Part shown: positions 13,143-25,797 of the stretch, in pieces
How positions within the stretch are numbered: the stretch's first letter is position 1
Layout of the letters: the number at the start of each line of letters is the position of its first letter
Virus record (IMG/VR): IMGVR_UViG_3300038301_000293
Span: 1 to 32,631 of that record
Source: a virus
Reading direction: 5' to 3' (one strand)
Length of the DNA: 32,631 nt
Position numbers and translations under genes: made by a program
The notes under the pieces: generated by a model
The model's database searches: none
Seen by the model: the letters and a program-made list of their open reading frames with translations, nothing else
What the model was told of the DNA's origin: nothing

Positions 13143-13508
13143 TTATCTAGCCCATTTTCCTTCAGAAACAATCCTTGATATAACTCCATAAACAGATAAG
13201 TCACCAAAAGCATCAACAACAGACTCATTCTGCGGCTCCCGCATTGTTTTCACAACCAAGTTTAGTAATCTTTGAACTTTATCATTCATTCTAATTATAA
13301 GCCCTGTTAAACTCATTCTTACTTCACTTTCGTCTACAAGGCCTGTCCCTAAACTTATATTTCCAGGGCCGTAGTCCATTTGCTTCTCACAAAAAACTTT
13401 GTAGTCTTCTTGCTGTATTTCCTTAAAGCGCTCCATCATGCTCGGATAAAATCGTTCACAGTAATCTATTGCGCTCTCTTTCTTTTCTTTTCTTTTATTA
13501 TTTTTCAT
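13143..13508 (-). CDS. Nmad1 (DUF1599)-like nucleotide-modification-associated protein
   Basis: 121 residues from the ATG at 13508. Key segments are FCEKQMDYGPGNISLGTG, then LIIRMNDKVQRLLNLV, and ESVVDAFGDLSVYGVIS. These match the family pattern KQxDYGxxN, RxxDKxxRxxxL and DxxxDLxxY known as nucleotide modification associated domain 1. The family occurs in phages with modified bases; the precise reaction is not settled. The ATG overlaps the polymerase stop (TAATG), so it is coupled to DNA polymerase. The TTG-initiated form starting at 13520 is less likely. A role linked to nucleotide pools or DNA modification is inferred. Confidence 0.75.
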   Translation of the reverse strand: MKNNKRKEKKESAIDYCERFYPSMMERFKEIQQEDYKVFCEKQMDYGPGNISLGTGLVDESEVRMSLTGLIIRMNDKVQRLLNLVVKTMREPQNESVVDAFGDLSVYGVISRIVSEGKWAR

Positions 13509-15265
13509 TAGTGTACCCAATGGTTATCTATTACAGCTTCTACTTCCATAGCTATTCCAGGACAGTAGTGCTCAAATGCTTCTATCATCCCGACTTCTAA
13601 AAGCTTTCCTACGTCATCGGCATCGTCTTCATGAGCCTCTACTAGAATTTCATCATGAACTACATTAACTATTTTAGCATCGTACTCACCACTATCTATA
13701 GCTTCTTTTACCAGACATAACGCTAACTTAGTTATTGATGCAGATGCTCCTTGGCATATAATATTTTTAGAAATATTTAATGCATGAGAAACCTGCCTCT
13801 TATCATCCCAATCAAAAGATGACAAGTCTCTTCGTCTTTTATCTAAAGGCGAAAGAGCGTACTTTAGTTTCTTTGCCGCAGACACTGCCTGATCTAGTAC
13901 CTTTTTAATATTTGGGAATGTTGAGAAATATTTATTCATTAAAGTTTTAGCTTCCATAAAGCTAATACCTAAATTCTCTGCAAGTCTTCCAGGACCAATA
14001 CCGTATATTAAACCAAATGTAAGCGCTTTAGCAGCGTTACGTTGTTTCTTAGTAATGTCCTTATATGGAATTCCATATATTAGGCTTGCTGAATTTGTGT
14101 GTAGATCAACTTTATTATTTATAGCATTTATTAGTCCAGGCTCTTTGCTTATATATGCCAGTACCCGAATTTCTTGGCTAGCATAATCAGCAGCAATAAT
14201 TCTATACTCAGAGTCTTGTGCCGTAAAAGCTGACCTGTATCTCTCGTCACTTGGAATATTTTGTAAGTTAGGTTGAGTACTTGAGTACCTACCAGAGTCA
14301 GCACCGAGCTGTTTAAAGTTAGAGTGGATTCTACCGTCGTATGAACTTACAAATTTTCTAAAAAACTCTTCTCCATACGTACTAATACGCTTCTGCTTTT
14401 CTCTATAGTCTAGTAAAAAGTCCACAACTTCGTGATTTACTTTTTTTAACTCTTGCTCACCTGTTGAAGTTATATTCATACCAGTAATTTTACTTAGAAT
14501 CGGTAATAATTGTTTTGGTGACCTATAGTTTATATCAACATCCTCAAACAAAGTTAACTGACCACAGTAAGGTTCGAAGTATTTATCTAAACCTTTTTTA
14601 GCAATATCTGCATCAGCCTCAGCTTCTACTTTCAAAGCTGTCCACTTCTTCCTATCTAAAAAAAGCCCATTTAGCTCCATATCCCCTGTAGGAGCAACTG
14701 TCCTATACTCCAATCTTGACAGTTCGTCCATGTTTCTACTTTCTAAAAGTCTTTGCATGTTTTTATATAGAGGAATTAGGTGTTTAGTATCATCGCCAGC
14801 ATACTTTATTTGGCTTTCTGTGAAAGTTGATCCTAATCTCATATCAATAAAAGATTTTTGTTCGGCTTTACTAACTTCAACCCCTAAGTATTTATACAGA
14901 ACAGAATCCAATCCGCTACTTAATTTTTTCCCGGTCGTTAAAAGTTGGTTTGCAAGCATAGTACATCTCATATTTGTAAGCTCTATTTCAAAATTTCCTT
15001 TTATCATTTTATAATCAAACTTTGCGTTGTGTAAAACCTTAACTAAATCTTTTTCTGTTAACCAATGTAACACTGTAAAAATTTTAGTATTTAGTTTGAA
15101 AACATCAAACACAAATTGTTTATGTTCTGTACCCACTTGCAATAATAGTACTTTATTTAGTACCGGGTCCAGTCCATTTGTTTCTGTGTCAACCGCTACA
15201 ATGCTTTGAGTCTTTAAGTAAGACATAGCTTCTACCAATTCCGACTCCGTTGTTACGTATCCCAT
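13508..15265 (-). CDS. polA: Family A DNA polymerase with 3'-5' exonuclease
   Basis: 585 residues. The exonuclease domain carries VAVDTETNG (D26, E28), HNAKFDY (D84) and YAGDDTKHL near 155-163. The polymerase domain carries motif A AADYASQEIR (D360), motif B KQRNAAKALTFGLIYG (407-422) and motif C VVHDEIL (H537-D538-E539). No 5'-3' exonuclease domain is present, as in T7-type replicative enzymes. Phe at the O-helix position (F417) resembles E. coli Pol I rather than T7. It is the likely phage replicase, working with the primase-ATPase at 28755-31493. A GGAGG site lies in the end of the sigma gene, which it overlaps by 13 bases. Confidence 0.95.
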   Translation of the reverse strand: MGYVTTESELVEAMSYLKTQSIVAVDTETNGLDPVLNKVLLLQVGTEHKQFVFDVFKLNTKIFTVLHWLTEKDLVKVLHNAKFDYKMIKGNFEIELTNMRCTMLANQLLTTGKKLSSGLDSVLYKYLGVEVSKAEQKSFIDMRLGSTFTESQIKYAGDDTKHLIPLYKNMQRLLESRNMDELSRLEYRTVAPTGDMELNGLFLDRKKWTALKVEAEADADIAKKGLDKYFEPYCGQLTLFEDVDINYRSPKQLLPILSKITGMNITSTGEQELKKVNHEVVDFLLDYREKQKRISTYGEEFFRKFVSSYDGRIHSNFKQLGADSGRYSSTQPNLQNIPSDERYRSAFTAQDSEYRIIAADYASQEIRVLAYISKEPGLINAINNKVDLHTNSASLIYGIPYKDITKKQRNAAKALTFGLIYGIGPGRLAENLGISFMEAKTLMNKYFSTFPNIKKVLDQAVSAAKKLKYALSPLDKRRRDLSSFDWDDKRQVSHALNISKNIICQGASASITKLALCLVKEAIDSGEYDAKIVNVVHDEILVEAHEDDADDVGKLLEVGMIEAFEHYCPGIAMEVEAVIDNHWVH

Positions 15266-16071
15266 CTCAAAAAATCCTCCAAAGTTTTAGAATACTTCTT
15301 ACTCCGCAACTTTTTTAATATTTTCTCTTTAATTTGCCTTATTCTTTCTCTAGTTAACCCCATATCTACACCAATCTCTTTTAACGTATATGGCCTAACT
15401 TGTTCAATACCATAATACATTTTTAATATGCTCTTCTCCCTCTCAGGAAATGTTTTTAGGATATGAGTGAGTTCTTTCTTAAACTCTCCGTCTGTTTTTA
15501 AAACACCATAAGACAAGTCAGCAGGTATAATCTCATTTAAAGTTTCATTATTTTCAGTATGTGGAGTATCAAGACCAATAACTGTGTAATTAAACTTCAT
15601 GTCTCTTATGGCTGTCGTATCTCCATCTAAGTATTCTTCTAATTCATTTATCGAAGGATATCTTCCTAATTTATTTTCTAGCCTTTCGGAAGCTTTAGTA
15701 GCTTTCGTTATGTTAGAAATTTTATTCAAGGGCAATCTAATAATTTTCGCATTTTCATGCAGTGAATTAAATATAGCTTGACGAATCCACCACACAGCGT
15801 AAGTAATAAACTTTACATCTTTACTAATATCGAACTTCTCAAATGCTTTTACTAGGCCTAAGTTACCTTCTGATACTAACTCGTCTATTGTAAGTCCTTG
15901 ATTTTGGTACTTCTTAGCCACGCTAATAACAAATTTTAAATTAGATGTTATTACTTTTTCCCTAGCAGCCATGTCACCGAGTTTTCCTTTCTTTATTAAT
16001 ACCCTCTCTGCCTTTTTACTTAAAGGTGTACTAGGTATAATAGATTTTAAATAATAACTGAATGCATCCAT
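15253..16071 (-). CDS. Phage-encoded sigma-70-family RNA polymerase sigma factor
   Basis: 272 residues covering regions 1.2 to 4.2. Region 2 includes NLKFVISVAKKYQNQGLTID and FITYAVWWIRQAIFNSLHEN; a region 3 segment follows; region 4 ends with TLKEIGVDMGLTRERIRQIK, the helix-turn-helix that reads -35 elements. It would redirect host RNA polymerase to phage promoters, probably middle or late ones. The ATG has no Shine-Dalgarno site and lies only about 13 bases after the T-run of a terminator (16091-16117). Expression therefore needs readthrough or a promoter inside the upstream gene. It overlaps polA by 13 bases, tying replicase and sigma expression together. Confidence 0.95.
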   Translation of the reverse strand: MDAFSYYLKSIIPSTPLSKKAERVLIKKGKLGDMAAREKVITSNLKFVISVAKKYQNQGLTIDELVSEGNLGLVKAFEKFDISKDVKFITYAVWWIRQAIFNSLHENAKIIRLPLNKISNITKATKASERLENKLGRYPSINELEEYLDGDTTAIRDMKFNYTVIGLDTPHTENNETLNEIIPADLSYGVLKTDGEFKKELTHILKTFPEREKSILKMYYGIEQVRPYTLKEIGVDMGLTRERIRQIKEKILKKLRSKKYSKTLEDFLRWDT

Positions 16072-16345: not shown

Positions 16346-16606
16346 TTATTTGGTTTGTTTATTTAAATGATAAATTTTATCATCATCTTGTCTAACGGCT
16401 TTTCCATCGTCCTGTAACTTTTGGCAAATAGAGCAGTTAATGTACCCCCTGCATTTATCAGGGTTATCCCAGTTATGAAATATTTGATCAAACTTATCTC
16501 CATAATCTGGTCCTACCGGACTTTGAGTATTCCTAATTTCACCAAAGTCTATGCTCTGTGCTCTTTTTTGCCTACCGTCATCTTGTTTGATTGAATTTAT
16601 GTTCAT
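16346..16606 (-). CDS. Small unknown protein with clustered cysteines
   Basis: 86 residues, polar, not recognised. CRGYINCSIC (C-x5-C-x2-C) near 53-62 could bind a metal. The N-terminal third is rich in Gln, Asp and Arg. It starts 20 bases after the E1-like gene's stop, and the interval holds CTTTAATATAACTAAT (16608-16623, + strand), a 16-mer also found at 27976-27991. It may belong to the ubiquitin-like cassette, but that rests on proximity alone. Confidence 0.55.
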   Translation of the reverse strand: MNINSIKQDDGRQKRAQSIDFGEIRNTQSPVGPDYGDKFDQIFHNWDNPDKCRGYINCSICQKLQDDGKAVRQDDDKIYHLNKQTK

Positions 16607-16626: not shown

Positions 16627-17220
16627 TTAGAAGTGGGCAATATAATTATGAGTGTTTTTATCTCCCCTAACCCAGTTTAAAATAAACTGTGCTCCGATAC
16701 TGCTCACTATTCTGTTCCCAAGTTGTATTATATTATTTTCAAACTCCCACTGTCTCTGGCAACTGCCATTTTCTACGTCTTCTTTAGGCAATGTTTTCAT
16801 CATTACGTCAAGAGTATTTTTCTTACTCTTAGTAAAAATAGCTATATCTCGTCCCTCGCTTCTCATATCCATCCAAAAAATATTGTCGTATTTATCCACA
16901 TACTTAAATAGTAGCTTCCTAAACTTAGAGTTGTCGACACAGCATACAATTCCATCATAATTCATTAACTGTTCTTCCTTCTCTATACGATTGGTAATTG
17001 AGTTAAATCCGTACCTTGCTGACAGTGATTCAGATTTTTCATCCATTATGTCTTCTAATGAAAAATTTTGGTATGATAAGTTTTTATTTTCTACCGTGTC
17101 ATCATCTGCAAAAGTAAATACCATATCATCTGGAAATTGGCCGTGCAATTCTAGATTAAAGAGGTGCTCTGCTAACCAACTTCCTATTCCTCCTGCTCCT
17201 ACTATTAGTACATGTCTCAT
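16627..17220 (-). CDS. ThiF/E1-like adenylyltransferase
   Basis: 197 residues. The nucleotide-binding GAGGIG (8-13), acidic strand end FADDDTVENKNLSYQ (D39-D41, N47, Q51; Tyr replaces the usual Arg before Gln), a Lys at 62, and IVCCVDNSKFRKLL (D96) are the standard E1/MoeB/ThiF adenylation signature. Such enzymes activate the C-terminal glycine of ubiquitin-like proteins with ATP. C154 (NGSCQRQW) is a candidate for thioester formation but is not proven. The protein is short and lacks a CxxC zinc site. Its ATG directly follows the JAB stop (TAA-ATG), and the Gly-Gly-ended partner lies one gene further upstream. Resembles PRTRC-type ThiF proteins in context. Confidence 0.85.
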   Translation of the reverse strand: MRHVLIVGAGGIGSWLAEHLFNLELHGQFPDDMVFTFADDDTVENKNLSYQNFSLEDIMDEKSESLSARYGFNSITNRIEKEEQLMNYDGIVCCVDNSKFRKLLFKYVDKYDNIFWMDMRSEGRDIAIFTKSKKNTLDVMMKTLPKEDVENGSCQRQWEFENNIIQLGNRIVSSIGAQFILNWVRGDKNTHNYIAHF

Positions 17221-17649
17221 TTAATTTGTCTCCAGTTCTATAGGGTCCCAGTTACGGTTAGACTCATTACCATCGTAATAATAGGCCCTAGTTTCCTTAA
17301 ATTTAGGTGAGTGTATAATATATACCCCCGTGTAACCTGCTCCTTGAACATCTGTAACAGAGGGTATTGGCCGGTTATTTGGGTGAGAGTGCATAATTCC
17401 TAAAAAGTCACTTTCTGCGCTCGAAGAAACATGAGTAGTTTTTCTTAACATACTCATAAATTCATTAGGGTCCGGTACATAATGTACTTCTTTGTTCTCT
17501 GTACTTATATTAGTTAGTGGTATAAACTCTTCACACTTCCATGAGTTACCTTGTTTTTTGCCAACCATAGCCCCAACAATTTCGTCGGGGCTACTATTTG
17601 CATAACTTGTCATCTCATAGAGTATGTCTCTTGAAATGCTAAAATTCAT
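17221..17649 (-). CDS. JAB/MPN-type (JAMM) metalloprotease
   Basis: 142 residues from ATG 17649. The catalytic JAMM pattern is complete: HSH-x7-S-x2-D at H87, H89, S97 and D100, plus an upstream Glu (E23 in SPDEIVGAMVG). Known relatives remove ubiquitin-like proteins from targets or trim them to expose Gly-Gly. A TTG 12 bases upstream was rejected: the ATG has a GGTGGA site formed by the last Gly-Gly codons of the previous gene and starts 1 base after its TAA, so translation of protease and ubiquitin-like protein is coupled. It belongs to the E1/JAB/Ub-like trio. Confidence 0.88.
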   Translation of the reverse strand: MNFSISRDILYEMTSYANSSPDEIVGAMVGKKQGNSWKCEEFIPLTNISTENKEVHYVPDPNEFMSMLRKTTHVSSSAESDFLGIMHSHPNNRPIPSVTDVQGAGYTGVYIIHSPKFKETRAYYYDGNESNRNWDPIELETN

Positions 17650-17650
17650 C

Positions 17651-17899
17651 TTATCCACCAACTAACGCGTTAGCCATCATGATTTCTTCCGCATCTATCA
17701 CATCTTCTAAAGTAATTGAGTCAGGTGTTTTATGGTTTCCGTCAATATAAGCCCATCGGCCCGTAGTTTCTGATTCATACTTTATCTTTTCTAGGGCTGC
17801 AACAGGTATTCCAGACCACTCGTCGTGCCCATTAGTTGACACAATTTTTATTGTAACCTCTGATAACTCGCTTGAAATGTTATTTTTGTTTTCGTTCAT
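17651..17899 (-). CDS. Ubiquitin-like (beta-grasp) small protein ending in Gly-Gly
   Basis: 82 residues ending ANALVGG, so a free diglycine (81-82) is present from the start. The order fits a beta-grasp fold: strands at EVTIKIVSTNG and GIPVAALEKIKYESETTGRW, a YIDGN turn, then ITLEDVIDAEEIMMA. The end resembles the PRTRC protein C pattern (xPExVxxxYxxxYPELxxAxVxG), from memory. It lies directly upstream of a JAMM protease and an E1-like enzyme, the usual partners of a ubiquitin-like modifier. Fold assignment is inferred from length, C-terminus and neighbours. Confidence 0.6.
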   Translation of the reverse strand: MNENKNNISSELSEVTIKIVSTNGHDEWSGIPVAALEKIKYESETTGRWAYIDGNHKTPDSITLEDVIDAEEIMMANALVGG

Positions 17900-17921: not shown

Positions 17922-19997
17922 TTATAATGTGTTAATAGCACTTGCGACCAAAGCGTCGTTGTGAAGTGCGTATATTCTATTTACTAATTTATCCATGCCT
18001 ACCTGGCTGGATGACTTATCCACAATACAAATATACCTTCCTTCCGGGAAAGAATATACTCCACATTGAGGATCGTTAGTATCTATTTGTTCCTTACCTC
18101 CAGTGTCTATGAAGTATTTTCTCAAAGACCCTTTTATAAGGTACCCAGTTTTAGAAGAACCGTCGCCCATGGTAACTGTCTCTTCTTCGATGTTGAATGT
18201 TTTTTCTGTGTCAGTTAAAAGTTCCTTACTCTTCTCTATAGCATCTACATAAGCTTTCTTACCAGAAGAAATAATTCCTTTTATACTGTCAACTTCCACG
18301 CCCTCTACAGACTTACCGTCAAGAAGCGTGTTCACCACATCCATCATGGATCCTTTTCTAGATAATCCTATGACTTTCTGAGTATTTTTTACTCTATAAG
18401 ACTCATCGTTTATCACGAGGTAGTTTATATTCTTTCTTCTTTCCAGAGGTAACTTTAAAGCTACCGTGATATTATCAAACTCATCACGAACATTTATATC
18501 AACACCTACTTGAAGATAAGTATGTATTTTTAGGGAACATTTACTAACAGAGGCTATAAAATAGTCAAAGTCTGCTTGGTTAGTAAAACACAAACCCCTC
18601 TCTAGTACAGACTCCACCTCATCAGAATTTATTCTTTTATTATTTACATAAATTCTTGTGGCCGTAAAACCGAGGGTATTGGTACTAACTCTTTTCTCCA
18701 CTTTAAATGAGACCTCCCCTACATTTCCGATTCCTTCTGAATCAGAGACGTATGATAAAAATATAGGCAAAGCTTGGTCAAAGTTTACATCGTCTAAACT
18801 ATATGCACGAGATAGCGTATTCAGGATTTTATAAGTTAAGTTTGGTATATCTGACCTTAAGACTTGTCCTTCGTACTCTATTTTTTCATCTGAGTAGGTA
18901 ACTCCATTCAGTTTAAGGGACTTTCCTGGTGTTAATAAAGTCTGTAACCTCTTTTCTATTTTTTCTCGGAGTTTGTTTTTAGCTTTAGACTTGGCTTCTT
19001 TTCTAGCAGAGCGTTGTAGTTCTCTCTTAGTAAGGATGTTCAAAGAATTGTTATCTAGAAATTCAACATAATCACCATTTTTCCCGAGAAGATAGTTGCT
19101 TAATACTACCCTATTTGGCAAAGTAGGCTCAGGATCAGTAAAAATTAGATTACCTAGAGGTACCATTCTTTTTTCATTTCTACCTGAGTAGTGTAAATGA
19201 GTACCAGAACCCAAGTAGTATACCCTACCCACGTCTACATAGTCATAAGACGGGTCAGAGTGAGGCACAAGTCTAAAGAACGAGTTATATCTCGTACCAT
19301 AACCGTACGTAGAAGAGTAATAAGAAACATACCCTCTAAAATTATCTAGCTCCAATACGTGAGCTATGAAATATAGGTTGGGGTTACTATTTAGAAGTCT
19401 AGTTGTCTTTTCACTCGGAGCAGTTGTTGTTAACTTTCCTCCTTTAAAAAAAGATCCTAATAGTTTATCAATATCTTCTTTTTCCACAGGTATGTGCGTC
19501 GAGTCCCAAGCAGTTTTTAAGTTACGTTCGTACTCTACCCTAAAATCACTTACATTTTTAAACACTTTATTTAAAATATCAGGAAAGGACGTATTAGTAA
19601 GAATATGTGATATCACATAAAGAGCTTCAAAATCCGAGTCTTTTATGTTTTCAAAGTAAATATCTGTACCGTACGAAGGAGAAAATTTAAAAAATTCTGT
19701 CTTATCGCCCCAATGTCTATATTGCCCATCTTCTACAAAGTAGTTGTGCGTTGTTTTTTGTATATCAACACTTGATCCATACCCGGAGGACACAATAACT
19801 GATGACCCCTTTACCTGGTATTTTAAGGCATTTAAAACAGTACTTACCTTACTTTCATCCCCATCACCCTTAAACATCTCAATTGTTTTGTTCTGTAAGT
19901 TACTTACTTTAGAGTTTATATCCTCTATATTTTTGTCAGTAAGATTTAGTTCATACAACCCGTTAATAGCGGGTAGTAAGTGTTGTGTTGTATTCAT
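17922..19997 (-). CDS. Large protein of unknown function beside the ubiquitin-like cassette
   Basis: 691 residues, not recognised. The start is ATG 19997 with AAAGGAAAC just upstream; a TTG eight codons earlier is rejected. The middle (about 225-265) is Tyr-rich (YVSYYSSTYGYGTRYNSFF). A basic, probably coiled segment follows near 345-375 (SARKEAKSKAKNKLREKIEK). No transmembrane segment, signal peptide or known catalytic motif was seen. The gene lies 16 bases after the OB-like gene and 22 bases before the ubiquitin-like gene in one run of genes, so it may be target, scaffold or effector of the E1/JAB module (inference). Confidence 0.75.
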   Translation of the reverse strand: MNTTQHLLPAINGLYELNLTDKNIEDINSKVSNLQNKTIEMFKGDGDESKVSTVLNALKYQVKGSSVIVSSGYGSSVDIQKTTHNYFVEDGQYRHWGDKTEFFKFSPSYGTDIYFENIKDSDFEALYVISHILTNTSFPDILNKVFKNVSDFRVEYERNLKTAWDSTHIPVEKEDIDKLLGSFFKGGKLTTTAPSEKTTRLLNSNPNLYFIAHVLELDNFRGYVSYYSSTYGYGTRYNSFFRLVPHSDPSYDYVDVGRVYYLGSGTHLHYSGRNEKRMVPLGNLIFTDPEPTLPNRVVLSNYLLGKNGDYVEFLDNNSLNILTKRELQRSARKEAKSKAKNKLREKIEKRLQTLLTPGKSLKLNGVTYSDEKIEYEGQVLRSDIPNLTYKILNTLSRAYSLDDVNFDQALPIFLSYVSDSEGIGNVGEVSFKVEKRVSTNTLGFTATRIYVNNKRINSDEVESVLERGLCFTNQADFDYFIASVSKCSLKIHTYLQVGVDINVRDEFDNITVALKLPLERRKNINYLVINDESYRVKNTQKVIGLSRKGSMMDVVNTLLDGKSVEGVEVDSIKGIISSGKKAYVDAIEKSKELLTDTEKTFNIEEETVTMGDGSSKTGYLIKGSLRKYFIDTGGKEQIDTNDPQCGVYSFPEGRYICIVDKSSSQVGMDKLVNRIYALHNDALVASAINTL

Positions 19998-20013: not shown

Positions 20014-20409
20014 TTACTCAAATAAGCTAGATTTTTCCAAGTTTTCTTCGTCCATTTTACATGATGTCATAACTAAAAAGTTGTCATTATCTGGGTATAC
20101 ATTTACTTCTTTACCAATTAATTCATTTAGATCTGAGATTTTGTAATACCTCATTAATTTAGCTAGGGAGCTGTTTGGCGATATATTACCTTCATGGTTT
20201 AGTGATAGCCAAAGCCCCTGAATTTTCTTATTTCCCTTATTGTCTTCTGTCCATACGTCTGAAATTTGGAAGCTTTTTCCATCTGGCTGGGACACAGAAA
20301 ACCTAATTTTTTCTGATGTTTCACCACGTACGTCTACTTCCACTTTTTCTGCGTTTATAACAGTAACTTTTCTTAGTTGACTTCCTACTTTTAAATTTAA
20401 AAAACTCAT
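20014..20409 (-). CDS. Small beta-rich, possibly OB-fold protein with C-terminal SLFE
   Basis: 131 residues, predicted mostly beta: SQLRKVTVINAEKVEVDVRG, then KIRFSVSQPDG, and LIGKEVNVYPDNDNFLVMTS. The end is acidic and finishes LEKSSLFE. The DUF669 protein at 25882-26313 finishes TGASLFE, so both may bind the same partner through their C-termini. A nucleic-acid-binding role is only a guess from the fold pattern. It starts a transcription unit after a strong terminator, with an A-rich leader and no Shine-Dalgarno site. Confidence 0.65.
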   Translation of the reverse strand: MSFLNLKVGSQLRKVTVINAEKVEVDVRGETSEKIRFSVSQPDGKSFQISDVWTEDNKGNKKIQGLWLSLNHEGNISPNSSLAKLMRYYKISDLNELIGKEVNVYPDNDNFLVMTSCKMDEENLEKSSLFE

Positions 20410-20547: not shown

Positions 20548-23529
20548 TTATATTATTTCACAGGTGTCATTGTTGCAAAATTTTTCTACATTAGCTTCTT
20601 CATCCTTCACGGTTCCAAAGCTTAATTTACTTAGACTTTGCGTCATTTTATTGTAGGTATCTTCGTCTATTGATTCATATGGCATCTGAGCGTATGCACC
20701 AATCTTCGTACGGGGAAGAAAGGAAACCGACTTTAGTTTGTACTGATAGTGCTCTAATGCCCTTTCAATGTCGTGGCCCTCAGTTTCAGGGTTAAATGTT
20801 ACTGTCACTGACACCGCGTTATCTGCCCAGTTCTCTGACATAAAAGCTGCTAATTCTAGTTGCTCCCACATCGTCACTTCATTTAGTGGGCGTATACCGC
20901 TTCCGACGTCTACCGGTATCTCTACCACTGACGTGGATTCTTCTTGCCCTACTGCGGGCTCTACTGTGTAACCTGCTTTTTCTAAAGGGCTTAGCAGCTG
21001 ACTATGATTACCTATTCTCATACGCCTTATATAAAAACGTGACTCAGGGTAATGTATACCAGGAGTACTACCATTTAGTAAACTGATACTTCCGCTTGGT
21101 TTGTTAGTTGTTATTCGTATACTTCGGGGTATAGCTAACCAATTAGAGTATATTTTATCATACTCTTTTAAAGCATCATACCCATCGTTCAACCACTCTC
21201 TTAGAGTAGGTAAATTCTGGTTTGTTAAGAATTGCGCAATACCACTCACACTGGTACCTACTCTCCTATTTCTTAGCATGACTGCATTAGTCTGTGGCCA
21301 ATGAGTGTTTAAAAGTGTCACAGTTTTACTGTATAGATAAGCGTACTTTAAAGATTTTATAAAGTCTTCTTTAGATTCATGTTTGTCAGGGAAGACCTCA
21401 CATAAATTACATTGAAAAGTTAAAGAATTTCCAAAAACACCCATTCCCGTAAGGGGCTCGTAAAAACAAAATGTAGGATGGGTACCCGGTAACTCCTCAA
21501 TAGATCTAATAGACTGGTGTTTTTTATTACTTACAGGCTTTGAATCTTTATATGCGTTGTTCTCTGAATACCCAGTGCCAAAATTTCTTATCTTTTTTAA
21601 TCGCGTGGGGATAGATTTACAGTCATGAGAGTGAATTCTGAGCCCCCATAAAGCATAGTTTCGAATTCCCTTATTTGTTTTAAATCCTTTAGGGGAGCAT
21701 TCAAATGCGGCAGTGTAATTAATTCCAACACGCCGTAAAAGAACTTGCATGTCCTTCATTTGTAGCTCCTTACCATATAAAACATAGTGCTCAGTATATT
21801 TATTTTTAAGAACTGTGCCATCAGTCTCTATGTACCCTGCTGTAAACTCTAATATTGATTTCTTATCCATAGTAAAAACAAAATCAGGAAGCCCTTTCAT
21901 TTTACGTAAATCAGTGGACTTATCAACGTCCAGAACAGATTTTAAATATAGCCTGTTTATGGGGTCTTTACACTCTTTCTTTATTTGAGGCTTTCCCCAC
22001 TTTCCTTTTACATTAAGATTCTTTAATTTAACCTTATCTCCACATAAAGTTACTATGGGGTTTTCTTTATAAACACAACCATCACCTGCCATTAAACCGT
22101 ACTCAAAGGCATTAGGATAATACTCCCCCTCAATACCGCCTAAAGTGAAATCAGGAAGTCTGTAACCCTTTCTAAGCTCTGAGGCTTTTACAGTTTTAAA
22201 CTTAACACTGCCAGAGGGTAAAGCACTAAATCTATGGTAGTCCGTCGTTTCAAGAACTGACCCATCAGTCATAGTAATTCTTAAAAGCTTAGACGACGTA
22301 GAAGTTTTAAAAGGTGTAACTTTGGACCAATTTTCCCCGTTCCATATCTCTACTTCTTTACCAACAATGTTTTTAATTTTTGCATTACCGCTTTTTAATT
22401 GTAAGCGAGTGTCACCTGCTACGCATTTTTCTGCGCTCTCTAAGAATATCTCACCACATGGATTTGTGGCTTGTGTTCTGTCATCTTTTTGTAATCCATT
22501 AGATGTATCTCCCATCCTCTTATTATTATGTGCATTTTCTAACCACAACAACCCAGGCTCTCCATTAATACGAATGCTCTCAGCTATATCTTTGTAGTCC
22601 ATACCTAGTGTAGCATTTACACTATTATTAGATGACCAACCGTAGTCAACTCTTCCGGGATTCACTTCGTAGTTTTTTAAGTTTAAAAACTCTTCTGAAG
22701 TATCACCTGCTATTAAGATAGCTGACCTTCTTGTATTTCCCGCAACAACTACTTTTCCCGTAAGATTGAATATATCGGCTATAGTGGTTTGCGTAATTAA
22801 ACTGCCGACATTTTTATCTAATGTTTTACATACTGCAGAATGAAATTCTTTTAAAGGTGCGCTACCTGAAGCAGTCCCACCAAACGTTTTAATAGGAGAG
22901 CCTGCAGGACGAATTAATGAGTAATCCATAATAGGAGTTTTATTTTTACCAAAATAGGCCCCAATGACCAGTCCTAGTGACTCAACCCACCCTTCTCTTG
23001 TGTCTGGTATAACAAAAATCTCTTCTTCTTTAGACGGTTCTCGTACATCTATGGTACCTGCCCCCTTTAGATCTACCCCCATTCCCACACCAAGCATTAA
23101 CATATCTTTAGCAAACATGAATGGGTAAGAGGGGTCCTTAGCTATATTTTCAGTACTGACAAAACAGCAATTGAACAAGGCGGGCGTCAAACGCTTTTTA
23201 CTTATAATGTCCGACCCTTGTGCAAATAAACCTCTACCTGGGGGCAATATTTTCATATGAAACATGCGGTCATACATCTCTTGTGCGGAAAATTGTGACT
23301 TCTGTGGGTTCCATTCTAGCCTGTGCTGTTCAATCCAATCCTTTTGGATGTTGTAGGTTCCCTCAACAACACGTTTTATTGTTTCCCACCATCGCTCATT
23401 TTTGCCGTCGTCCTTTATTCTACTATAGGTTCTGTAGTATACAAGTTCTCCTAAACCGTTAAACCCAAAAGGTGGTTTCTTTCTTTTATACTTAGATATA
23501 AAATTTTCTGATAATGAAAATTTGCTCAT
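20548..23529 (-). CDS. nrdJ: Class II (adenosylcobalamin) ribonucleotide reductase with intein
   Basis: 993 residues; 655 after removing a 338-residue intein (369-706). The reductase part matches monomeric B12-dependent ribonucleoside-triphosphate reductase: FNCCFVSTENI near 119-129, FAKDMLMLGVGMGVDL, NPCGE (thiyl C358, E360), CNLCEVF after the intein, NKPSGSISLLNGSTPGIHYP, and a C-terminal C-x4-C pair (CNNDTC) for redox shuttling. Spacing C358 to the spliced Cys is 11 residues, as between C408 and C419 of the Lactobacillus enzyme. It makes dNTPs for phage replication without a separate small subunit but needs host cobalamin. A GGAGG site sits in the end of the dUTPase gene, whose stop lies 2 bases before the start. 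Confidence 0.93.
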   Translation of the reverse strand: MSKFSLSENFISKYKRKKPPFGFNGLGELVYYRTYSRIKDDGKNERWWETIKRVVEGTYNIQKDWIEQHRLEWNPQKSQFSAQEMYDRMFHMKILPPGRGLFAQGSDIISKKRLTPALFNCCFVSTENIAKDPSYPFMFAKDMLMLGVGMGVDLKGAGTIDVREPSKEEEIFVIPDTREGWVESLGLVIGAYFGKNKTPIMDYSLIRPAGSPIKTFGGTASGSAPLKEFHSAVCKTLDKNVGSLITQTTIADIFNLTGKVVVAGNTRRSAILIAGDTSEEFLNLKNYEVNPGRVDYGWSSNNSVNATLGMDYKDIAESIRINGEPGLLWLENAHNNKRMGDTSNGLQKDDRTQATNPCGEIFLESAEKCVAGDTRLQLKSGNAKIKNIVGKEVEIWNGENWSKVTPFKTSTSSKLLRITMTDGSVLETTDYHRFSALPSGSVKFKTVKASELRKGYRLPDFTLGGIEGEYYPNAFEYGLMAGDGCVYKENPIVTLCGDKVKLKNLNVKGKWGKPQIKKECKDPINRLYLKSVLDVDKSTDLRKMKGLPDFVFTMDKKSILEFTAGYIETDGTVLKNKYTEHYVLYGKELQMKDMQVLLRRVGINYTAAFECSPKGFKTNKGIRNYALWGLRIHSHDCKSIPTRLKKIRNFGTGYSENNAYKDSKPVSNKKHQSIRSIEELPGTHPTFCFYEPLTGMGVFGNSLTFQCNLCEVFPDKHESKEDFIKSLKYAYLYSKTVTLLNTHWPQTNAVMLRNRRVGTSVSGIAQFLTNQNLPTLREWLNDGYDALKEYDKIYSNWLAIPRSIRITTNKPSGSISLLNGSTPGIHYPESRFYIRRMRIGNHSQLLSPLEKAGYTVEPAVGQEESTSVVEIPVDVGSGIRPLNEVTMWEQLELAAFMSENWADNAVSVTVTFNPETEGHDIERALEHYQYKLKSVSFLPRTKIGAYAQMPYESIDEDTYNKMTQSLSKLSFGTVKDEEANVEKFCNNDTCEII
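21412..22425 (-). other. Intein with LAGLIDADG homing endonuclease in nrdJ
   Basis: The intein covers residues 369-706. Block A is CVAGDTRLQL; block B is TTDYHRF with the expected His; two LAGLIDADG-type helices are EYGLMAGDGCV (476-486) and FTAGYIETDG (562-571). It ends GNSLTFQ before Cys 707. The terminal residue is Gln with Phe before it, rather than the usual His-Asn; Gln-ended inteins are known but uncommon. Boundaries are set because removal gives LESAEK-CNLCEV, the exact reductase spacing. Cys 707 is both the splicing nucleophile and the predicted redox Cys. Confidence 0.9.
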
Positions 23530-24174: not shown

Positions 24175-24632
24175 GTGTCTTTATCGGTTAGTAATGTTAA
24201 GTAGTCGTCAGCTTCCACTAACCACTCGTCTTTAAAATCATTATATGGTATGGACTTTCTTCCATCACCATACCAATACTTAGACACCAGTGATATAGGC
24301 GTCACAAATGCACGCTTATGCATTTTTTTAAAATGTATGAGAAAGAACGCTAAACCTCCAAGCTCCTCCACCAATTCTAAGTACATCAATTGGTGTTGTT
24401 TTATGTTTTTTAATGGAAAAGATGTTTTTATCTGAGTTTCTTTCGCATCAAATGCTACAAATCTCCCGTTAGGGGGAACTAATCCTGTGTAGTCTACTGT
24501 ACTAGTTTGTGCAATTAAGCCCTTTCGCGTGTAAAGGATTGGTACAGGTACCTTCAGTATAAGTGCTTTCTTCTTCTTTCTATACTTCCAATTTGCTGCA
24601 TTAGCAGATTTTTCTAGTTCATTAACTTTCAT
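24156..24632 (-). CDS. recU: RecU-type Holliday junction resolvase
   Basis: 158 residues. The catalytic core is visible: STVDYTGLVP with D47, FVAFDAKET (D62, K64, E65), then TSFPLKNIKQHQLMYLELVE and a GGLAFFLIHFKK strand. This is the RecU/PD-(D/E)xK arrangement of Gram-positive-type resolvases that cut four-way DNA junctions. It would resolve recombination intermediates before packaging, acting with the Sak4-like and DUF669 proteins encoded nearby. The start overlaps the end of the glycosyltransferase gene by 11 bases. Stop is TAG. Confidence 0.88.
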   Translation of the reverse strand: MKVNELEKSANAANWKYRKKKKALILKVPVPILYTRKGLIAQTSTVDYTGLVPPNGRFVAFDAKETQIKTSFPLKNIKQHQLMYLELVEELGGLAFFLIHFKKMHKRAFVTPISLVSKYWYGDGRKSIPYNDFKDEWLVEADDYLTLLTDKDTWIYDL

Positions 24633-25797
24633 TTTTTATAAGAATGGTTAGACCATTGTTATTAGTGTACCTCTTAAAGATAGACCACTCATTGTGATGA
24701 GATATAAATTCTTCAACAGCTATCCACAGACCCTTACTTTTCCCGTCCTCGCCAGTAAGTTCAAACGAAGTTGTATCATGCATTACTATGTACTTACTTA
24801 CTTTCGAATGATGCGTTTCTAATTCAGCTATCAATTGTTGGTATACATGCCATGTGTCAATAAATAAGAGCTCTGTCCTATCTATCTCTAACTTCAAAGT
24901 GTCTTCTTCATCGAATTTAAAGTCTATACCCTTTTCCTTGGCATATATTATCAATGAACTTGCATCATCATCCTTCTTATCTATGTCATAGGACCTTAAA
25001 ATACTTGGTTCACCCATTATCAACGCTATTGTTGATACTCCGTGCCGGACACCAAACTCTGTTACATGGTTAACTTCTGATGCAAGATTTTTAAGGGTCT
25101 GAAGGTGCTCATTTATGTCTGATTGGCTATTACATAAGTCATGGAATCTTTTATTAACTCCACCAAAAGGAGATGCATAAGTTTCTTCTCCCGGAGGTCC
25201 ACCCCATTTCTTATTGTAGTGTTCTCTTAGAGCATAAAAATCTCTATTCAATGATTGATCTTTTTGAATAGTCATGGACCCTCTGTATATACTAGGGTTA
25301 CACCCCTCATCAATCACGGGAAAAGCTCCACTTAGTTTAAGTCTATAGATGTAATCGTTATCCTCAAAATAAGCCGGATAAAAAGTAGTGTCAAAGTAAC
25401 CTACTGCATCAATAGCTTTTTGAGAGATAAAAAAAGAGCACCAACCCAACTTACTATAGATTACGCTATAATTTTTATGTGTCTCTACGATCTTTTTTAA
25501 ATCAGACGATGTTTTAGTTAAAACAATGTCATCATTTAATATAAGAAGATGGTCCCCATTACTATTAAAAAATTTGTCAATTAAAAAGTTCCAGCTGCCT
25601 GCGACACCCAAATTATGTTTTGGACGTATTATTGTTGTAATGTCTTTTAAACTATTAGGTACTGATATATCTTGTCCCCCGTTATCAATTATACATAGTT
25701 GGTAAAGATCGGGTAAATTCGTAGCTAGATCATCTAAGCTCTCGTGCAAAAGATCTGCTCGATTTATTGTTGGTATCCCTACGAATAATTTAATCAT
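24622..25797 (-). CDS. Glycosyltransferase family 2 fused to a class I methyltransferase
   Basis: 391 residues. Residues 1-215 are a GT-A glycosyltransferase: KLFVGIPTINRADLL, CIIDNGG, LLILNDDIVL (N88-D89-D90) and YFEDNDYIYRL (acceptor-site ED). Residues about 240-390 resemble CmcI-type SAM methyltransferases: VTEFGVRHGVSTIALI (SAM loop), LLFIDTWHVYQQLI and YIVMHDTTSF. The fusion probably adds and methylates a sugar. It lies among DNA-metabolism genes rather than tail genes, so base glycosylation or surface modification are both possible. The ribosome site AAGGAG precedes the ATG, and a terminator lies upstream, so it begins its own unit. Confidence 0.85.
   Translation of the reverse strand: MIKLFVGIPTINRADLLHESLDDLATNLPDLYQLCIIDNGGQDISVPNSLKDITTIIRPKHNLGVAGSWNFLIDKFFNSNGDHLLILNDDIVLTKTSSDLKKIVETHKNYSVIYSKLGWCSFFISQKAIDAVGYFDTTFYPAYFEDNDYIYRLKLSGAFPVIDEGCNPSIYRGSMTIQKDQSLNRDFYALREHYNKKWGGPPGEETYASPFGGVNKRFHDLCNSQSDINEHLQTLKNLASEVNHVTEFGVRHGVSTIALIMGEPSILRSYDIDKKDDDASSLIIYAKEKGIDFKFDEEDTLKLEIDRTELLFIDTWHVYQQLIAELETHHSKVSKYIVMHDTTSFELTGEDGKSKGLWIAVEEFISHHNEWSIFKRYTNNNGLTILIKNES

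Follow-up and report, generated by a model that had tools for sequence, protein, structure and literature searches.

A compact phage cassette of a ubiquitin-like protein, a JAB protease and an E1-type enzyme as a candidate system for reversible protein modification

Introduction

So far, ubiquitin-like conjugation in prokaryotes has been associated mostly with defence against phages or with sulfur chemistry. The PRTRC cassettes of plasmids, which sit in a replicon-maintenance neighbourhood (ParB), include the E2-like protein PRTRC B (Prok-E2_D), and archaea possess the SAMP system, in which Gly-Gly beta-grasp modifiers are served by a MoeB/ThiF-type E1 and removed by JAMM isopeptidases; to our knowledge, no E2 is known for archaeal sampylation. 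Bacterial neighbourhoods of E1, JAB and Ub-like genes were described by Iyer et al, who proposed that JAB proteins process fused Ub-like domains and noted the TAPI/TAPK proteins of phage lambda (Iyer et al, 2006; PMC1779556). In type II CBASS and in Bil, conjugation is used in defence (PMC10097602, PMC11354881).

Here, we describe, using profile searches, structure prediction and phylogenetic analysis, a tailed-phage cassette of a ubiquitin-like protein (UBL), a JAB protein and an E1-like enzyme that may modify proteins reversibly. A published description of this cassette was not found in a literature search of incomplete coverage that included few subscription papers, and the main text of a jumbo-phage survey contains no mention of JAB, ThiF or Ubl (PMC7824862).

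Results

A coupled gene trio in a tailed-phage record

The window, which is the whole stretch of 32,631 nucleotides that was analysed (Table 1), is a genuine tailed-phage record with tail fibres, a tail-sheath match, polA, a sigma factor, ribonucleotide reductase (RNR), primase, Sak4, RecU and dUTPase. All three open reading frames of the cassette lie on the minus strand in the order UBL, JAB, E1, and the translated UBL ends in MMANALVGG. The ATG of JAB at 17649 stands 1 base past the TAA of UBL, and the stop of JAB is followed by the ATG of E1 at 17220 with a gap of 0; the TTG start that the ORF finder chose for JAB, 12 bases upstream of the ATG, would overlap the modifier gene. Pfam assigns Prok-JAB (E 4.5e-13) and ThiF (E 4.5e-14) to the second and third protein, both above the gathering score. 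A preliminary description of the locus had proposed a small protein with a C-terminal Gly-Gly, a JAB protein and an E1-like adenylyltransferase, encoded by coupled genes with 1-base and 0-base gaps, and both the three frames and their start and stop positions bear this out. The spacing that it gave for a complete JAB site, HSH-x7-S-x2-D, is likewise right, as E27, H91, H93, S101 and D104 are all present (numbering of the 146-residue ORF).

Table 1. Position of the cassette, its companion genes and its context genes in the window.
Feature	Position	Strand	Evidence or remark
IMGVR_UViG_3300038301_000293 (window)	1-32,631 (32,631 nucleotides)		Virus record from IMG/VR
UBL, 82-residue ubiquitin-like modifier (candidate), C-terminus NALVGG	17651..17899	-	Beta-grasp model, Foldseek matches, Gly-Gly in 20/20 lineages
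JAB/JAMM metalloprotease, 142 residues from ATG, complete E / HxHP-x6-S-x2-D site	17221..17649	-	Pfam Prok-JAB, closest solved structure PfJAMM1, residues 20/20
E1/ThiF-type adenylyltransferase, 197 residues, GAGGIGS loop, D96, candidate thioester Cys154 (GSCQ)	16627..17220	-	Pfam ThiF, kinship to PRTRC ThiF and Marine Group II archaeal E1, residues 20/20
~700-residue companion, 691 residues from ATG / 699 from TTG at 20021	17922..19997	-	Before the trio in 30/30 bait loci
131-residue companion	20014..20409	-	Immediately precedes the ~700-residue gene in 28/30 loci
86-residue accessory protein, conserved H, W, C..CxxC (possible zinc site)	16346..16606	-	Behind E1 in 14/30 loci
Ribonucleotide reductase	20548..23529	-	Context gene, upstream neighbour in 14/20 lineages
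Sigma factor	15253..16071	-	Context gene, downstream neighbour in 17/20 lineages
DNA polymerase A	13508..15265	-	Context gene, downstream of the sigma factor

Conservation of the cassette and its location

No close relative of the cassette was found among the INPHARED phage records. Searches of IMG/VR first returned near-identical and about 80% identical relatives; as the alignments grew, further loci with an E1 identity of 35-59% were reached, on contigs of up to 210 kb. With a lineage defined as an E1 under 90% identity to others, the cassette occurs in 20 lineages, all from IMG/VR and including that of the window (at least 19 related ones). Invariant in 20/20 lineages are G81-G82, S21, G24 and W49 of the modifier, the five JAB site residues named above, and the G-x-GGIGS loop, D39, D41, K62, D96, R101 and S153-C154-Q155 of the E1; the trio is beyond chance, since the terminal Gly-Gly, the JAB set E/H/H/S/D and the SCQ of E1 are all kept. 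It is also under purifying selection, as comparison of the window with its 80% relative gives dN/dS values of 0.070, 0.077 and 0.060 for the three genes.

A bait scan with the ~700-residue protein encoded upstream, used alone and independent of the trio, returned 32 loci. UBL, JAB and E1 follow the ~700-residue gene in the same order in 30/30 new loci, and the trio is present in the remaining two as well, which are short contigs found earlier (L003, L005). Mostly, the cassette is placed between RNR and the sigma factor/DNA polymerase genes, with RNR inside the flank in 14 and the sigma factor in 17 of the 20 lineages. The cassette is a component of a core block and not a stray gene.

Several other features of these genomes were observed. 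Several lineages have an additional gene separating UBL from JAB (for instance L017 3716-4522 and L025 5256-6053). The RNR of the window (20548-23529) is 993 residues long, where most relatives have about 660; its matches are confined to residues 21-377 and 811-934, and it has an internal CVAGDT-type start. It probably carries an intein. In several relatives (L017 7956-9982, L025 8260-9381, L077 9159-11458), the DNA polymerase A frame is broken at or close to the DFSGQ motif, which suggests introns, inteins or homing elements. At 24622-25797 of the window, a Glycosyltransferase family 2 domain is joined to a methyltransferase-like region.

The 82-residue protein is a predicted beta-grasp modifier

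Sequence searches of Pfam, PHROGs, NCBIfam and PADLOC yield nothing convincing for the 82-residue protein, and it is therefore identified by its predicted fold, its context and its homologues; against solved structures, a sequence comparison of its profile gives chance matches only. The best of five AlphaFold2 models, for which a three-sequence alignment was the input, has the order strand-strand-helix-strand-strand-helix-strand and a mean pLDDT of 75 (42-65 for the others). Foldseek places SUMO, NEDD8, ubiquilin and other ubiquitin-like chains of the PDB on top, with ubiquitin among the matches, at a probability near 1, yet with E-values no better than 4.5e-3. By VIA, TtuB (Z 5.2), protein L (5.1), SUMO-1 (5.0) and Caldiarchaeum ubiquitin (4.9) tie; TtuB is a sulfur carrier. 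A predicted beta-grasp topology is well supported, at middling model confidence. The preliminary description had staked its reading on such a fold and on a Gly-Gly kept among homologues: the first is what the model predicts, and the second holds throughout the 20 lineages, so that the moderate-confidence model, the Foldseek matches and the conserved end together agree with a modifier that offers a free C-terminal Gly. By tblastn, the modifier also matched HMO-2011 (E 2) and Lily (E 0.2), inside an amidase and a capsid gene; we regard these as chance matches.

In 14/20 lineages the modifier ends exactly at Gly-Gly, and in 6/20 a tail follows. In four of the latter the tail is short, at one to three residues (GGK, GGNAN, GGC and GGN), while in L022 (3756-4463) and L036 (3716-4432) a conserved domain of roughly 150-160 residues is fused past the Gly-Gly, like ubiquitin fusions. 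The tailed forms look like precursors.

Relationships of the JAB protein and the E1

When compared with solved structures, the JAB family profile finds PfJAMM1, an archaeal isopeptidase-type JAMM, first and aligned along its length. The E1 family profile finds a ThiF-type protein and NEDD8 E1 first. Aligned to E. coli MoeB, Cys154 of the phage E1 falls beside the TC cysteine, and D96, K62, N47 and Q51 are at conserved positions. However, E1 activity is not to be presumed, because the Arg of the MoeB NLQRQ motif (Arg73) is Tyr50 in the phage protein, which also lacks both the N-terminal helix and the zinc cysteines that MoeB has. The E1 appears to combine an ATP site with a candidate catalytic cysteine, albeit with Tyr in place of MoeB Arg73.

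Profile comparison relates the phage E1 to the E1 of Marine Group II archaea (99.9%), PRTRC ThiF (99.4%, E 1.5e-21 by hhalign, homologous along its length) and the ThiF of crAss-like and Flavobacterium Fpv phages (98.9%). In a maximum-likelihood tree, which has several long branches that make deep joins unsafe, the phage E1s form one clade (98/98); the archaeal E1s are nearest to it (89/72, not firm), phage, archaeal and PRTRC E1s group together (97/92), and MoeB and the crAss/Fpv E1s are elsewhere. A longer ThiF/MoeB-like protein on a Listeria-labelled contig (L013) was judged, by reading, to belong to an ordinary cofactor locus.

A related gene set in Marine Group II archaea

E1-like genes on MAG contigs of Marine Group II archaea (L037-L057; Poseidoniales assignment from the record titles) are mostly followed by a protein with the JAMM motif HTHP-x6-S-x2-D. 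In four of these loci, the phage modifier profile finds the protein just before the E1 at E 4e-11 to 4e-4, compared with E 1.5 for the best of 1180 shuffled frames that served as a control. In the archaeal modifiers a tail extends beyond PGLVGG or PGLIGG, and L057 encodes a fusion of two UBL repeats with the E1 (UBL-UBL-E1). The archaeal set resembles the phage cassette in its homologous Gly-Gly modifier, in the closest E1 relatives and in an adjacent JAMM of the same motif, but differs in gene order (UBL-E1-JAMM), in its tailed or fused modifiers, in a JAMM that is weakly alike by profile and in that no ~700-residue partner was seen. Judged by sequence, it appears to be the nearest cellular counterpart among those found; within our incomplete literature coverage, no paper on it was found.

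Companion genes and the search for an E2

The ~700-residue companion has invariant Cys470, Cys487, His492, Cys657 and Lys661 (691-residue numbering), and because of these cysteines it is a candidate carrier or target selector. Its model, of pLDDT 82, was searched as one piece and gave no clear PDB relative by Foldseek or VIA; three viral structure models without a name match it at E 2e-7 to 3e-6. An E2 hidden in this protein was considered, and neither an E2 Pfam match in 16 members nor an hhalign match to PRTRC B or to the crAss/Fpv proteins that look E2-like at first sight was obtained; a divergent E2 might still lie in one of its domains. Pfam finds no E2 domain in the 197-residue E1 protein, and Prok-E2_B and PRTRC B (Prok-E2_D) were each detected in 0/18 phage records by searches whose positive controls were likewise silent. 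The preliminary description had seen no E2, and none emerges from these Pfam and hhalign searches either.

Discussion

How does the phage cassette relate to the described systems? The preliminary description likened it to the core of PRTRC, and this likeness holds for the E1 and not for its partners. A further shared trait is the setting, as PRTRC too lies among replicon-maintenance genes (ParB). TIGR03736 (PRTRC ThiF) is the best NCBIfam match of the window's E1 by E-value and matches all 16 aligned E1 members, though the window scores 46.9 bits against a cut-off of 144.75. In contrast, the modifier gives an hhalign probability of 0 with PRTRC C and no Prok_Ub match in Pfam or NCBIfam, whereas true PRTRC C proteins do match Prok_Ub; PRTRC A is absent from the NCBIfam matches of JAB at E up to 1, neither the 131-residue nor the ~700-residue companion matches PRTRC E, PRTRC B is not seen in the phage cassette, and gene set and order differ. 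The seven cellular genomes matched by the E1 yielded no PRTRC C in a search whose control was also silent. We do not file the cassette as a PRTRC member.

The crAss-like and Flavobacterium Fpv phages L010, L011 and L012 have ThiF and JAB cassettes of their own in a replication neighbourhood, with the JAB-like frame of Fpv1 split by an endonuclease gene. Their E1 is related but is located elsewhere in the tree, their upstream proteins are not alike by profile and a Gly-Gly modifier was not recognised; they were rejected as close relatives. With archaeal SAMP, HvJAMM1 and PfJAMM1 the cassette shares the types of modifier, E1 and JAMM enzyme as well as the want of a known E2, but the modifiers have no sequence match and JAB scores 62.5 bits with the desampylase model NF041370 (HvJAMM1), far under its curated cut-off of 130. 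The E1 and JAB domains of Bil and type II CBASS (Cap2/Cap3) are broadly related to those of the cassette; those systems own an E2 and act against phages, whereas here the genes belong to the phage and an E2 is not seen.

We consider it fairly probable that the trio is a phage-encoded, reversible ubiquitin-like protein modification system that either works without an E2 or uses a novel one. In this reading, E1 would bind ATP, adenylate the C-terminal Gly82 of the modifier and then carry the modifier in thioester linkage to Cys154. Transfer to target lysines could be direct, as has been proposed for archaeal sampylation, or, at a guess, proceed through the obligate ~700-residue companion as a carrier or target-selecting factor. 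JAB would trim precursors with residues past the Gly-Gly, as the tailed forms suggest, and would strip the modifier from its targets; we argue for deconjugation since JAB is kept where the modifiers (14) end at Gly-Gly, so that processing alone is insufficient. Because of the conserved location of the cassette, the targets might lie in phage replication, nucleotide supply or transcription, or be host proteins that meet these processes; speculatively, the ~700-residue companion could be the missing carrier or itself a target. This reading draws on the coupled genes, the beta-grasp model, the invariant residues, dN/dS, the kinship to PfJAMM1, the archaeal counterpart and the finding of no sulfur-donor genes; its strength is tempered by the lack of an E2, the departures of the E1 from MoeB, a modifier with no sequence link to known modifiers and the TtuB tie. 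The preliminary description, which spoke of a compact ubiquitin-like conjugation/deconjugation cassette, agrees with the fold, the intact residues and the conserved linkage. It had the kind of system right and drew it too narrowly, overlooking the ~700- and 131-residue partners, the precursors with a tail past the Gly-Gly and the counterpart in archaea.

The main rival to protein tagging is a role as sulfur carrier, in which E1 activates the small protein, a host donor makes the thiocarboxylate and sulfur is passed to a nucleotide, tRNA or metabolite, with JAB trimming precursors as proposed for ThiS/MoaD-like fusions. Bacterial UBL-JAB-E1 operons have been tied to sulfur metabolism and siderophores (PMC1779556), models of ThiF and MoeB match the E1, TtuB heads the VIA matches of the modifier in a tie with SUMO-1, and no E2 was found. 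However, none of 14 modifiers has a ThiS/MoaD Pfam match, the neighbours are replication and transcription genes, and the donor genes that would complete such an operon are scarce: rhodanese (0/18), ATP_bind_3 (0/18) and aminotransferase V (1/18, weak) in phage records that may be fragments, with positive controls that worked. This scarcity speaks to some degree against a sulfur system that is complete in the phage, though the host might provide the enzymes; overall, we think this explanation unlikely.

More unlikely still is counter-defence or host take-over, in which host proteins are tagged by the phage or freed by JAB from the tags of a conjugation-based host defence such as type II CBASS or Bil. 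Such host systems exist (PMC10097602, PMC11354881), and JAB weakly matches Cap3 and PADLOC JAB models. Yet a JAB for that purpose would need no UBL and E1 of its own, and the strict linkage to the ~700-residue partner fits a core function, as does the constant position within the replication/sigma block across the 20 lineages. Counter-defence genes usually show a patchy distribution. This conserved setting in a replication, nucleotide and sigma block also weakens the suggestion, made in the preliminary description, that the phage counters host conjugation. The JAB protein matches PHROG tail proteins, and phage tail clusters hold the Ub-like TAPI together with a JAB peptidase (PMC1779556), which might hint at virion assembly, with the small protein as a processed scaffold, JAB as its protease and conjugation never taking place. 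In lambda, however, the pair occurs without an E1, in the tail module and with JAB fused to NlpC/P60, whereas the phage cassette is outside the tail module, its JAB is a stand-alone domain and its E1 residues are invariant, and we give this possibility very little weight.

A wider form of the protein-tagging reading, which we put forward tentatively and with considerable doubt, is that a broad group of tailed phages relies on a tagging cycle of its own as a core of genome replication or gene expression, that the ~700-residue companion is a new E2/E3 acting as both thioester carrier and target selector, and that related machinery operates in Marine Group II archaea.

If the protein-tagging reading is true, viruses would themselves employ protein tagging during their life cycle. 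The cassette would then also provide a minimal system, with modifier, JAB and E1 adding up to about 420 residues, in which conjugation can be studied without a known E2, and would offer a way into the origin of such conjugation systems.
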